From Caballeronia sp. SBC1 (GTDB lineage: Bacteria > Pseudomonadota > Gammaproteobacteria > Burkholderiales > Burkholderiaceae), in NCBI RefSeq assembly GCF_011493005.1, contig NZ_CP049158.1:1550001-1614000 (forward strand): DNA of 64,000 nucleotides. The letters run 5' to 3'. Made by a program: the position numbers and the translations under genes. This document shows positions 17,136 through 22,329 of this stretch, in pieces (within the stretch, counting starts at the first letter, position 1; each line of letters begins with the position of its first letter). The notes below the pieces were generated by a model, which had not been told where the DNA came from, made no database searches, and saw only the letters and a list, made by a program, of their open reading frames with translations.

Positions 17136-17495
17136 CTATGCTTGCCAGACGCCGTACCCGGCTTCCCGCAAGCCGATTGCCAATTCCACTTCCATCTCCC
17201 GCGCGCCTTCATACGGCATCGGGTTATACAGTTCGTAGAGCTGCGGCAACAGTCGCAGCCCGAATTCCCGCGCATACCGGTTCGACTGGATGCCGGCCTT
17301 GTGTTTGTCGAAACGAACATCGGGGTCGATGCCCGTCATGCCTACGTAGACGAAGGGCTTGCCGAGCACGTAATCCGGATTCGCGCGCCGGAAACGCGCT
17401 TCGTTCCAGACCGTGTCCGCCAGTTCGATCACGTAGACGTGGTAATGGTGAGACCTGGGGTGCGTCTTTTGCTGCGTCTTTTTCCGAAGCGCCAT
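17136..17495 (-). CDS. Possible GIY-YIG-like protein, unknown function
   Basis: A 119-residue basic protein. HYHVYVIEL and, after a 26-residue insertion, FVYVGMTG resemble the paired strands of the GIY-YIG nuclease fold, followed by RFDKHKAG with Arg and His at plausible positions, and a Glu-rich end (EGAREMEVELAIGL). The insertion between the two strands is longer than usual, so nuclease activity is not assured. Start chosen at MALRKK with AGGG seven bases upstream; a TTG nine codons earlier is possible. 375 bases without a gene follow before gnd, in which I see only a TTGACA-like -35 element near 17807. Confidence 0.6.
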   Translation of the reverse strand: MALRKKTQQKTHPRSHHYHVYVIELADTVWNEARFRRANPDYVLGKPFVYVGMTGIDPDVRFDKHKAGIQSNRYAREFGLRLLPQLYELYNPMPYEGAREMEVELAIGLREAGYGVWQA

Positions 17496-17870
17496 GCGGT
17501 TACCCTGTTTCGCCTGGTTCAAGCGAGTCGCGCCGCGCCTGAAACCGGTCGCGGATGCTCATTCTAGACCGGTGTCAGGCATGTTGCCCGGACGCTCCCC
17601 GCTTGCTGTCCGACCGTGCTGGCGCGTGCGATGTCTGCCAGCCGCGTGTCAAAGTGGTAATCTCGCTCCGTCTGCGCGTTCCGCGCGGCGTTTGCGCGTT
17701 TCCACCGGCCAGGCTGACAGAAACGCGTAGTGTCCGTGCCGCTCTTGCGACTGTTTCCTGACGCGAGAGCCTGTCCGGAATGCCGTCGCGGACACCGCCC
17801 CAATTGACAAATCGCATCCGTCGCGCGTGTCGCCACGAGCCACCCGCGCTTCGGTCATTCGGAGAGAAAC

Positions 17871-19277
<1,407 letters not shown>

Positions 19278-19324
19278 GCTGCTGACGAGTTGCTTATAAA
19301 CGACTGCTCTTTCCAGTAGTTCAG

Positions 19325-19350
19325 CGCCGACGCATTCGCGTCGGCGTTTT
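19325..19350 (+). terminator. Rho-independent terminator after gnd
   Basis: CGCCGACGC and GCGTCGGCG form a perfect 9-base stem around the four-base loop ATTC, followed by a T-rich run (GTTTTCTTTT). It ends gnd transcription before the next gene pair. Confidence 0.9.
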
Positions 19351-19479
19351 CTTTTGTCCTGCGCAAATCGTCAGCTTTTGAATCGTCAAATTTTGTCGCG
19401 GCGAATTTTTCCACAAGTCGAATAATGGTGTTTGCGCCTAAGCTTCCCTATCGATGGATAACGGAACCGCGGGAAGATC

Positions 19480-20049
19480 ATGGCAACAGCAGTTACGTCA
19501 GTTAATCGGGAATCGGAGTTGAGCTACGCTTACCTCCACGCAATTGCATCCCACGCGGGCGTCAACTGCAAGACGAGCAACAGGCACGATGACAATGCCG
19601 GGATCGACGCCATGCTCACCGGTTGGGAGCCATTTCCGAACGGCGGAAGCCTGACCGAAGTCGACATCAAGGTCCAGCTGAAGGCAAGCATCAAGCCGCC
19701 ATTCGACGACGGCGACTCGCTTTCCTATTTCCTGTCCGGCACGCAGCAATATGACGACTTGCGCCGTGAAACGCACGCGTCGCCGCGGATACTTGCGGTG
19801 TTGTTCCTGCCGCCGAAAGCGGAAGACTGGCTGACACACTCTCACGAGCAACTCGTGCTGCGAAAATGCGCGTATTGGGTCAGTCTGCGCGGCGCTCCAC
19901 CAACAGACAACCATGCAGGTGTCACGGTAAAAATTCCGAAGCATCAGGTGTTCGACGGTACCGGTCTCATGCAACTCATGGCGAGCATCTCGCGTCGCGA
20001 AATTCCTGCTTATAAAGCTCCCGCACATCGAGTTTCTCATGGCGCTTAA
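19480..20049 (+). CDS. DUF4365-like protein, PD-(D/E)XK nuclease-type fold
   Basis: A 189-residue soluble protein. The N-terminal helix with Glu13 (NRESELSYAYLHAIA), Asp43 in NAGID and the Gln66-x-Lys68 of VDIKVQLKAS match the order of the PD-(D/E)XK catalytic residues as seen in DUF4365 proteins, which often occur in restriction or antiphage loci. I infer a nuclease-like core; no reaction is proven. Its stop overlaps the next gene by 11 bases, so the two form one unit. It lies just past the gnd terminator with its own likely promoter. Confidence 0.75.
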   Translation: MATAVTSVNRESELSYAYLHAIASHAGVNCKTSNRHDDNAGIDAMLTGWEPFPNGGSLTEVDIKVQLKASIKPPFDDGDSLSYFLSGTQQYDDLRRETHASPRILAVLFLPPKAEDWLTHSHEQLVLRKCAYWVSLRGAPPTDNHAGVTVKIPKHQVFDGTGLMQLMASISRREIPAYKAPAHRVSHGA

Positions 20050-21181
20050 AGATCTATCACCTTCCGGCCTGCGCGATTTCGTGAAATCGCTGGGATGGGA
20101 GTCGCTGCCCGATGGCATCGTGGACCGTCTCTACGTCCTGCATCACGCCGACATGCCGCGCCGCCAGATCGTCATTCCCATGGATCAGGATGCGCCGGAC
20201 TACGCCGAGGCATGTGAGCTCGCGTTGTCCAAACTCGCGGACCTGCAAGGTATGACGCTGGCGGATCTGATTCAGCTCGCTGCCATCTCGCGTGACGACT
20301 CCATCTATTACCGCGTGACAAGCAGCGGCGCGGTCGACGACGGCCTGCCATTGTCGTTCGCCGCTTCGTTGCTGTTGGGCGCGGAGCAGATCCTGCTCGC
20401 GTCGGCCTGTACCGTACTGCGTCCCCAGACTCATCATCCGCGTCTGCACAGGGCAGAAGCTACGCAACTTGCAGGTCATGCGCGGTTCGGACATACCGAG
20501 CGAGGCAGCTTCGTGGTCCGCGTGTCGTGTCCTGTCGACGCTATGGAAACGCCTTCCTTACCCGACCTCACGCATACGAAGGAGTCGTTCGTTCGCAGGA
20601 CCATGCTTACTGCCAGAAATGGCGTGCGCCAACTCGTCAAGGCTATCGAAGAAGACACGCTGAGCCGCTTCGTAGATTCGCAAAGGGCTGCGGCGTCACC
20701 TATCGTTTCGTCGAATCTTTGCGAGGCGCTGACCCGTCTTCACAATGACGACGTGCGCAACAACATCGATATGTCGTTTCGTTGGGCAACAACCGTAGCG
20801 CTACCGCAAGACGCCACGGCCGGTGAGACCATCACGATTCGAAGCGATTACTTCGGGCGTATTGACGACGTGCGCCAGGAATTGCGTGCGGTCGAACGTG
20901 ACCGCGACGACGTATTCATCGGAACAGTCGAGCATCTGAACGGTGAATTCAGTATTGAAGGAAATCGGGCCGGCGAGGTAGTCGTGGCGCTGCTCCTGCG
21001 TGAGGGCGAGATCATCAAGGCGCGCGTTCTACTCGATCAGGAACAGTATGCGAGGGCAGTCACTGCCCACCTTGACGACCGGGCCTTGGTTCGAATCGCG
21101 GGACGCCTGCGTCCTGGTCGCCAACCGCGGACGATGACCGACGTGACGAGCTTTGTCCTGATCGGCCCGGGTCTGGGCTAG
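20039..21181 (+). CDS. Unknown partner of the DUF4365-like protein
   Basis: A 380-residue soluble protein with no family I recognise. It opens MALKDLSPSGLRDFVKSLGW, a short helical segment that looks like a helix-turn-helix or docking domain. A helical middle follows (about residues 60-240), including a stretch built on RRTMLTARNGVRQLVKAIEE. The beta-rich C-terminus (about 265-380) with GRIDDVRQELRAV and RVLLDQEQYARAVTAH could be a small barrel. It overlaps the upstream gene by 11 bases and has only a weak ribosome-binding site, so translation is probably coupled. Confidence 0.7.
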   Translation: MALKDLSPSGLRDFVKSLGWESLPDGIVDRLYVLHHADMPRRQIVIPMDQDAPDYAEACELALSKLADLQGMTLADLIQLAAISRDDSIYYRVTSSGAVDDGLPLSFAASLLLGAEQILLASACTVLRPQTHHPRLHRAEATQLAGHARFGHTERGSFVVRVSCPVDAMETPSLPDLTHTKESFVRRTMLTARNGVRQLVKAIEEDTLSRFVDSQRAAASPIVSSNLCEALTRLHNDDVRNNIDMSFRWATTVALPQDATAGETITIRSDYFGRIDDVRQELRAVERDRDDVFIGTVEHLNGEFSIEGNRAGEVVVALLLREGEIIKARVLLDQEQYARAVTAHLDDRALVRIAGRLRPGRQPRTMTDVTSFVLIGPGLG

Positions 21182-21229
21182 TGCAAGTCAGGTTCGGCTG
21201 GGGGGTGGATTGGTGGCTGGTGTTCAGTG

Positions 21230-21285
21230 CTTTAAGGCCCGGGTCTTAAGGGCCAAGTCTTAAGGCGCGAATCCTAAGGCGCGAG
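21230..21285. repeat. Four degenerate 14-bp tandem repeats
   Basis: Four units of 13-15 bases built on CTTAAGG(C/G)(C/G)C follow one another: CTTTAAGGCCCGGGT, CTTAAGGGCCAAGT, CTTAAGGCGCGAAT, CCTAAGGCGCGAG. The last unit includes the stop codon of the convergent isomerase gene. Confidence 0.7.
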
Positions 21286-22329
21286 CCCCAGCACCTCCCG
21301 TATTTGCTCACCGTTCGCGCCGCTTCCGGCAAAGTCATCGAATGCCCGATCCGCTACGCGAATAATATGCGTGCGGATATATTCCGCCCCCTCGCGCGCG
21401 CCATCCTCCGGATGCTTCAACGCGCACTCCCACTCAAGCACGGCCCAGCCAGGAAAATCGTACTGCGCCATCTTCGAAAAGATCGCCCAGAAGTCGATCT
21501 GCCCATCGCCCAGCGACCGGAATCGCCCTGCCCGATCCACCCACCCCGAATAACCGCCGTACACGCCCTGCCGACCGTCAGGACGAAACTCTGCGTCCTT
21601 CACATGGAATGCCTTGATACGTTCGTGATAAATATCGATGAACTGAAGGTAGTCCAGTTGCTGCAGCAAGAAGTGACTTGGATCGAACAGGATGTTCGCG
21701 CGCGGATGATCGTCCACAGCGGCAAGAAAACGGTCGAACGTCACGCCATCGTGCAAATCCTCCCCCGGATGCAACTCATAGCAAACATCCACGCCGGCCT
21801 GATCGAAGGCGTCCAGTAACGGCCGCCAGCGCCGCGCTAATTCTTCGAACGCAGCCTCCACCAGACCCTGCGGGCGCTGCGGCCACGGATACAAATAAGG
21901 CCACGCCAACGCCCCCGAAAACGTCACGTGCGCGCTCAAGCCCAGACGCTTGGACGCCGCCGCCGCGAACCCAACCTGCTCGATCGCCCAAGCCGTACGA
22001 GCCTTCGGATCGCCACGAACATGCGCTGCGGCAAAGCCGTCGAAGAGCGTGTCATAGGCCGGATGAACCGCGACAAGCTGCCCCTGCAAATGCGTAGATA
22101 ACTCCGTGATGCTCACGCCCGCGTCTTCCACTACGCGAAGCAGGTCGTCGCAATATGCATCGCTCTTTGCAGCCTGCTCGAGATCAATCAGCCGCGGATC
22201 GCACGGCACCTGGATACCTTCGTAACCCAGGCCCTTCGCCCAGCCCGCAAGGTGCGCGAGGTTGTCAAAGGGCAATGTGTCGCCTAGAAACTGGGCCAGG
22301 AAAATGGCGGGGCCTTTGATGGTTTTCAT
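21274..22329 (-). CDS. Sugar phosphate isomerase/epimerase family (TIM barrel)
   Basis: A 351-residue xylose-isomerase-like TIM barrel. Visible metal-site elements include CYELHPGEDLHDG (Glu, His), NILFDPSHFLLQQLDY (Asp, His), KAFHVKDAEF (His, Asp) and the late Glu in WAVLEWECALKHP. It is the last gene of the sugar ABC transporter operon, so it probably acts on the imported sugar or its first product; related proteins act on inosose, allulose or similar substrates. The stop codon lies in a short tandem repeat. Confidence 0.88.
   Translation of the reverse strand: MKTIKGPAIFLAQFLGDTLPFDNLAHLAGWAKGLGYEGIQVPCDPRLIDLEQAAKSDAYCDDLLRVVEDAGVSITELSTHLQGQLVAVHPAYDTLFDGFAAAHVRGDPKARTAWAIEQVGFAAAASKRLGLSAHVTFSGALAWPYLYPWPQRPQGLVEAAFEELARRWRPLLDAFDQAGVDVCYELHPGEDLHDGVTFDRFLAAVDDHPRANILFDPSHFLLQQLDYLQFIDIYHERIKAFHVKDAEFRPDGRQGVYGGYSGWVDRAGRFRSLGDGQIDFWAIFSKMAQYDFPGWAVLEWECALKHPEDGAREGAEYIRTHIIRVADRAFDDFAGSGANGEQIREVLGLAP

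Follow-up and report, generated by a model that had tools for sequence, protein, structure and literature searches.

Several described defence systems come close to the locus treated here. In SPARDA, a fusion of a DUF4365/DREN nuclease domain with an APAZ domain is paired with a short Argonaute (MID-PIWI), and in NbaSPARDA the collateral activity of DREN is switched on by tetramerisation. TgvAB is a two-gene, modification-dependent system that lies in a type I restriction operon of Vibrio and protects without the restriction activity of HsdR. In Escherichia coli, DarTG2 occupies a slot between hsdS and hsdR, a site described as a possible hotspot of defence systems. PrrC, a guard embedded in the ecoprrI locus, is an accessory nuclease of a type I operon; it cleaves tRNA and responds when its restriction enzyme is inhibited. 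These descriptions follow excerpts of published accounts (literature drawn on overall, likewise in excerpt: PMC10810196, PMC12205087, PMC11411939, PMC12707154, PMC12255303, PMC9519451, PMC13192584, PMC12988326, PMC12429752, PMC12584637, PMC12409345, PMC12548924, PMC10855318). Here we analyse two overlapping genes, M02A and M02B, in a 64,000-nucleotide stretch of DNA (the window; positions 1,550,001 to 1,614,000 of NZ_CP049158.1) from a megaplasmid of the soil bacterium Caballeronia sp. SBC1.

The pair is a real two-gene unit and a member of PDC-M02, a catalogued but uncharacterised candidate defence family. The first protein matches the PADLOC-DB model of PDC-M02A (PDLC04287, expectation value (E) 6.5e-85, residues 4-180) and the second that of PDC-M02B (PDLC04329, 7.8e-149, residues 4-375). 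An earlier note on this DNA had held the partner and the pairing to be undescribed; since PADLOC-DB has models for both proteins, the pairing was already catalogued. No paper naming PDC-M02, its mechanism or a test of the pairing was found in the open-licence literature, which did not take in bioRxiv. What is new is the embedding of the pair in hsd operons, a short cyanobacterial form of M02B, a constant position behind gnd in Caballeronia, and carriers without a detectable HsdR. We propose that the pair is a candidate anti-phage system in which M02B would bind abnormal phage DNA and switch on the M02A nuclease, a reading whose chances we put at about even.

The gene pair and its predicted nuclease

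The features of the locus, in window coordinates, are as follows.

19480 to 20049, plus strand: M02A (gene 1), 189 codons, ATG start; DUF4365 protein, predicted DREN-type PD-(D/E)XK nuclease
20039 to 21181, plus strand: M02B (gene 2), 380 codons, ATG start; partner protein
20039 to 20049, plus strand: overlap of M02A and M02B, 11 bases, from the sequence
19516 to 19518, plus strand: Glu13 codon of M02A; E in 62 of 74 relatives
19606 to 19608, plus strand: Asp43 codon of M02A, putative metal ligand; D in 73 of 74 relatives
19675 to 19683, plus strand: Gln66-Leu-Lys68 codons of M02A, putative active site; Q66 and K68 each in 74 of 74 relatives
20039 to 20290, plus strand: N-domain of M02B, residues 1-84; present in every partner examined
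20291 to 20896, plus strand: middle region of M02B, residues 85-286; undetected in short partners by profile search
20897 to 21169, plus strand: predicted OB-fold (oligonucleotide/oligosaccharide-binding fold) of M02B, residues 287-377; from secondary structure and from Foldseek and VIA lists
19323 to 19348, plus strand: terminator-like stem behind gnd, 11 pairs with a T-rich tail; site count of the region not above shuffles

The frames, their overlap and the residues Glu13, Asp43 and Gln66-x-Lys68 are all present as the earlier note had read them. Its assignment of gene 1 as DUF4365-like is confirmed by Pfam (PF14280, E 1.7e-16, 61 bits against a curated cut-off of 24.3, residues 13-168), and this is the one DUF4365 match in the window's genome. 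An alignment of 54 M02A sequences shows no variation at D43, Q66 or K68 and keeps E13 in at least 90%. A wider set of 74, which takes in divergent plasmid, prophage and short-partner forms, retains Q66 and K68 throughout, D43 in 73 and D38 in 72, with E13 in only 62. The Q66-x-K68 pair has the same Q-x-K pattern as Q62/K64 of TmuRE. The terms DREN, PD-(D/E)XK and OB-fold topology are used in their general sense. By structure prediction, M02A has the PD-(D/E)XK nuclease fold that the earlier note had made a touchstone of its reading, and its closest relative is the DREN nuclease domain of SPARDA. M02A is a predicted DREN-type PD-(D/E)XK nuclease, presumably one that cuts DNA.

Both genes behave as genes under purifying selection. 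Against nine relatives from the Caballeronia group, the ratio of nonsynonymous to synonymous substitution rates (dN/dS) was 0.04-0.17 for gene 1, 0.12-0.25 for gene 2 and 0.01-0.07 for gnd; in the nine comparisons the value of gene 2 was 1.2 to 3.2 times that of gene 1. Plasmid pSBC2-2 of Caballeronia sp. SBC2 (NZ_CP049318.1, 1.83 Mb) encodes both proteins with 100% identity.

As had been proposed, the coordinates, the overlap and the near-constant pairing described below make the two genes a unit between gnd, which ends at 19277 upstream of M02A, and a sugar operon on the 3' side. The latter runs in the opposite orientation and encodes a triosephosphate isomerase (TIM) barrel, a periplasmic binding protein, a permease, an ATP-binding cassette (ABC) ATPase and a LacI-type regulator. 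As for the claim that gnd is terminated, the stem with its T-rich tail is there, but the three terminator-like sites found in 19200-21350 do not exceed the 2.0 (standard deviation 1.5) of shuffled sequences. A scan of the same region found no sigma-70-like promoter. Upstream of gnd, a minus-strand frame of 128 codons (window 17136-17522) looks GIY-YIG-like by eye, and Pfam at 1e-3 assigns it to no family.

Architecture of the partner protein

M02B matches no Pfam or NCBIfam family, and NCBIfam has no match for M02A either. Searches of PDB sequences with single sequences and with profiles gave nothing useful for the pair, and its matches in PHROGs are families of unknown function. The earlier description of gene 2 as an unrecognised protein with a beta-rich end is accurate where Pfam and NCBIfam are concerned, the beta-rich end being seen in the secondary structure of the AlphaFold2 model (predicted local distance difference test score 89.3, predicted template modelling (TM) score 0.77). 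The model places strands at residues 289-304, 310-319 and 325-332, a helix at 334-345 and further strands at 350-357 and 364-375. This arrangement has the topology of an OB-fold, a five-stranded barrel with a helix between strands 3 and 4, as a matter of prediction only, and the VIA rows for an OB-fold cover residues 286-380. Conserved residues of the middle region are D87, R92, T153, G156, S157, R186, N226 and C228.

Shorter natural partners divide the protein further. On five Nostocales (cyanobacterial) plasmids, a short M02B of 175-181 residues stands behind the DUF4365 gene, whose frame is broken in one of the five (L116). In profile searches these partners match the N-domain and the OB part, and the middle ~200 residues go undetected. 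A sixth short partner, of 185 residues, comes from Azospirillum and gives an N-domain match. The N-domain matches in the six range from E 3.5e-8 to 1.3e-11, and the OB part is kept in five of the six. Because it is the sole part common to every partner examined, the N-domain is the best candidate for holding the nuclease, and we infer from these sequence comparisons that it probably does so.

Several weaker resemblances may be recorded here. Compared with HicA by hhalign, the N-domain reached a probability of 45.7% over only 36 columns (18 of 25 HicA loci used), and the middle region and the OB part reached 0.1% and 0.5%. A 103-codon frame about 1.5 kb downstream of one pair (L027:12538-12849) has a weak N-domain match (E 0.00094) and might be a further partner gene. 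A weak match to DruH (6.7e-6, residues 45-148) occurs in the short partner of Nostoc sp. UHCC 0926 (L117:5498-6031). Kinship to Druantia was dropped because the profiles of the N-domain, middle region and OB part matched no frame of the fetched DruH loci at E 0.05; these loci came from 3 of 200 genomes. A protein of Leptospira phage LE1 (BFVD Q6NE06) is a full-length structural match to M02B (E 2.4e-19, TM 0.64), and a siphophage DUF6575 protein (BFVD A0A8S5QA00) is a weak one (E 1.6e-7 but TM 0.3). DUF6575 is among the domains reported, in an excerpt of the study, from a functional selection for phage defence. Sequence gave no backing for this weak resemblance; 2 of 299 genomes had DUF6575 matches.

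Pairing and genomic settings

The pairing of M02A and M02B is near-obligate. A scan of one genome per species found 77 M02B loci, 75 of them testable (L066 and L090 lie at contig ends), and M02A or its remnant stands upstream in 73 of the 75, which disposes of the objection, foreseen in the earlier note, that the two genes might rarely occur together. M02A immediately precedes M02B on the same strand: the M02B start is intact in 69 loci, M02B is truncated or broken in 3, and 1 further locus has M02A as a remnant; L022, L061 and L079 have no in-frame M02B start and were still counted as paired, M02A of L079 being broken too. Taking the start codon closest to the 4-base register, an overlap of 4 bases is possible in 48 of the 69 loci and one of 11 bases in 8. 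The divergence of the two proteins is correlated (r 0.92, 56 non-Caballeronia pairs, uncorrected for the species tree).

Mobile elements carry the pair as well. M02A was found on 25 plasmid records; 11 were left out of the partner count, and a partner is present in all 13 examined besides the record of this pair (7 full, 5 short, 1 N-domain only). Conversely, 13 plasmid records carry M02B; those of Streptomyces and Pigmentibacter were left out, and in that of Paenarthrobacter a fragment of M02A is weakly matched where the record ends (E 0.01). Viral contigs hold four M02B loci, two with M02A, and three M02A loci, all with M02B. A phage collection searched at 1e-5 gave two records for M02B and none for M02A; the prophage M02A was found by profile. 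The latter belongs to the Mycobacterium abscessus prophage prophi102-2 (L096, 398-2160), where a divergent M02A-M02B is the first gene pair at the left prophage end, some 2 kb before genes with a WXG motif. On the 28-kb plasmid p28 of the spirochaete Entomospira culicis (L100, 472-14127), the pair lies in a small island beside three DUF262 genes, an Abi-family gene, a HicA-family gene and two recombinase genes.

The expectation that the pair keeps company with antiphage genes was borne out for some of the relatives. In 14 of 66 non-Caballeronia loci it adjoins type I restriction genes (L026, L028, L029, L033, L037, L042, L063, L064, L073, L082, L083, L084, L086 and L089), or in 13 without L063, where one small opposite frame separates hsdS from the pair; L058 and L088, whose hsd genes lie at a greater distance, were excluded. 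In eight of the 66 (L028, L029, L033, L037, L064, L073, L082 and L083) the pair lies between hsdS and hsdR. L082 has the order hsdM-hsdS-M02A-M02B-hsdR, neighbouring genes being no more than about a dozen bases apart. The arrangement is looser elsewhere: three genes separate hsdS from the pair in L037, where hsdR adjoins it; one frame separates the pair from hsdR in L028; hsdR is in pieces in L029; and in L064 the pair is oriented opposite to hsd. Of 148 near and 148 far genes, type I methyltransferase models matched 11 and 1 (Fisher 0.005) and type I specificity models 9 and 1 (Fisher 0.019); the Fisher values are rough because the genes of one locus are not independent. Neighbour genes were taken as the longest frames of at least 100 codons, those above 900 residues being dropped, so that 148 of 205 near and 148 of 163 far genes were scanned; hsd genes were grouped by BLAST, and the labels of six members were checked by Pfam. 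Phage_integrase matched 2 of the 148 near genes. In L050, L055, L059, L060 and L068, mostly Methylococcales, the gene before the pair belongs to one family, a class-V aminotransferase in L050; this position is a second recurring non-defence home, like the place behind gnd.

Within Caballeronia the place of the pair is constant. Of 61 relatives searched, 37 belong to the genus, and all 11 with M02B are among these; the pair stands behind gnd in all 12 carriers examined (the 11 and G480; the copies of G480 and G008 are broken). Of the 30 places behind gnd examined in the genus, 12 contain the pair; in 9 it is missing and a relative of the TIM-barrel gene follows gnd at 1.2-1.3 kb; 8 contain neither of the two, and 1 is a contig end. 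Order-wide, 7 of 250 genomes have DUF4365 and 2 have M02B, namely the window's genome and one of the same genus; the other five DUF4365 matches are in frames of 318-1379 codons without an M02B match. Decayed copies occur: M02B is broken in Caballeronia mineralivorans (L022) and in Trinickia (L080, M02A not seen), both genes are broken in a Caballeronia symbiont (L079), and a metagenome-assembled Verrucomicrobia genome (L024) has an M02A remnant and a broken M02B. In the window's genome a single type I locus is present, on a different contig. Of 11 Caballeronia carriers, 6 gave no HSDR_N match (draft genomes), and five of these have the pair intact, which suggests that it needs no type I restriction enzyme.

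Proposed mechanism and alternatives

Since some relatives sit inside restriction operons, a defence role is likely for this candidate. We suggest that infection would be the trigger. Through its predicted OB-fold, M02B would recognise phage DNA that is abnormal and perhaps single-stranded, and it would hold M02A by the N-domain; it would then cluster or unlock M02A, activation by clustering being the way of SPARDA, and the activated nuclease would cut DNA. In type I operons, where it sometimes rides, the pair might serve as a second line. A more elaborate version, which we advance tentatively and think rather more apt to be wrong than right, makes the pair a guide-free counterpart of SPARDA: the OB-fold protein, in place of Argonaute, would assemble on single-stranded phage DNA and cluster DREN through the N-domain, leading to general DNA destruction, and the middle region would act as an exchangeable second sensor, which the short form of the cyanobacteria lacks.

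A number of observations weigh against the proposed sensing and defence. OB-folds serve many functions, and the fold itself is no proof of binding to single-stranded DNA; SilF, which binds silver, fills the top VIA rows for this part of M02B, and the list includes a toxin B subunit. The net charges of the three parts of M02B are -6, -3 and -1 (the last for the OB part), none being net basic. The OB part is undetected in the Azospirillum partner. M02B stands without M02A in L054 and L080 and on the viral contigs L093 and L094. The copy in the window is flanked by gnd and the sugar operon, and 52 of the 66 non-Caballeronia loci have no adjoining hsd gene by our count. Finally, two other PADLOC candidates, PDC-M63AB and PDC-S04, gave no defence in the model used, according to an excerpt of the report.

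The main rival is a modification-dependent restriction akin to type IV, in which the middle region of M02B would read modified bases and M02A would cut, complementing type I systems as TgvAB does. The absence of a methyltransferase from the pair, the invariant polar residues of the middle region and the precedent of TgvAB agree with it; against it, neither protein matches DUF262 or DUF1524 (Pfam, E 1), and the middle region goes undetected in the short cyanobacterial partners. We consider this explanation unlikely, and the remaining ones are less likely still. In a toxin-antitoxin reading, M02B would restrain M02A as a toxic nuclease until phage infection or plasmid loss freed it, which would suit an overlapping gene pair with a predicted nuclease and with copies on plasmids and prophages. 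However, M02B is a large protein of several domains whose middle region is conserved, and the unvarying place behind gnd in the genus is unlike that of a plasmid-addiction module, so that we hold a toxin-antitoxin pair to be very improbable. A guard of the PrrC kind, kept silent by the Hsd complex and fired when a phage inhibits it, has in its favour the eight loci between hsdS and hsdR and the example of PrrC itself. It would scarcely fit the many loci without an adjoining hsd gene, and the apparent independence from type I restriction counts against it; we give it very little credence. A pair serving DNA repair or recombination rather than defence is also highly doubtful, given its patchy distribution in the genus and the order, its decayed copies and its homes in restriction operons, plasmids and prophages.

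With the proposed sensor and nuclease as the working model, PDC-M02 turns from a catalogue entry into one with a testable anatomy: kinship to a collateral nuclease, an OB-fold partner (both by prediction), a shorter natural form and a recurrent home between hsdS and hsdR. The Caballeronia carriers without a detectable type I HsdR offer a clean setting for such a test.

Comparison with known systems

The pair is closest to PDC-M02 of PADLOC-DB 2.0.0. Both proteins match near full length, in the same order and spacing and adjacent on one strand, and no difference was found.

TgvAB, like the pair in some loci, is a two-gene system inside an hsd cluster, and DarTG2 shares the slot between hsdS and hsdR. 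The domains of TgvAB/GmrSD, DUF262 and DUF1524, are however absent from this pair by the Pfam search given above, and whereas TgvAB and DarTG2 sit in hsd clusters, the copy in the window stands alone. PrrC resembles the pair in some loci as an accessory nuclease in a type I operon. Its target is tRNA and its cue the inhibition of its restriction enzyme; the pair has a predicted fold of the DNase kind and occurs without detectable HsdR.

With SPARDA the pair shares the nuclease domain, by Pfam and by predicted fold, and the Q-x-K pair. The SPARDA protein is a DUF4365-APAZ fusion, whereas M02A, with 189 residues of which DUF4365 takes up 13-168, leaves no room for APAZ. The partner seems to differ as well, a short Argonaute in SPARDA and here a protein that ends in a predicted OB-fold and has no Piwi match in Pfam at E 1, the fold of residues 1-285 being barely tested. 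If the OB-fold does sense DNA, M02B would be a small, guide-free trigger for a kind of nuclease that SPARDA fires by an RNA guide.
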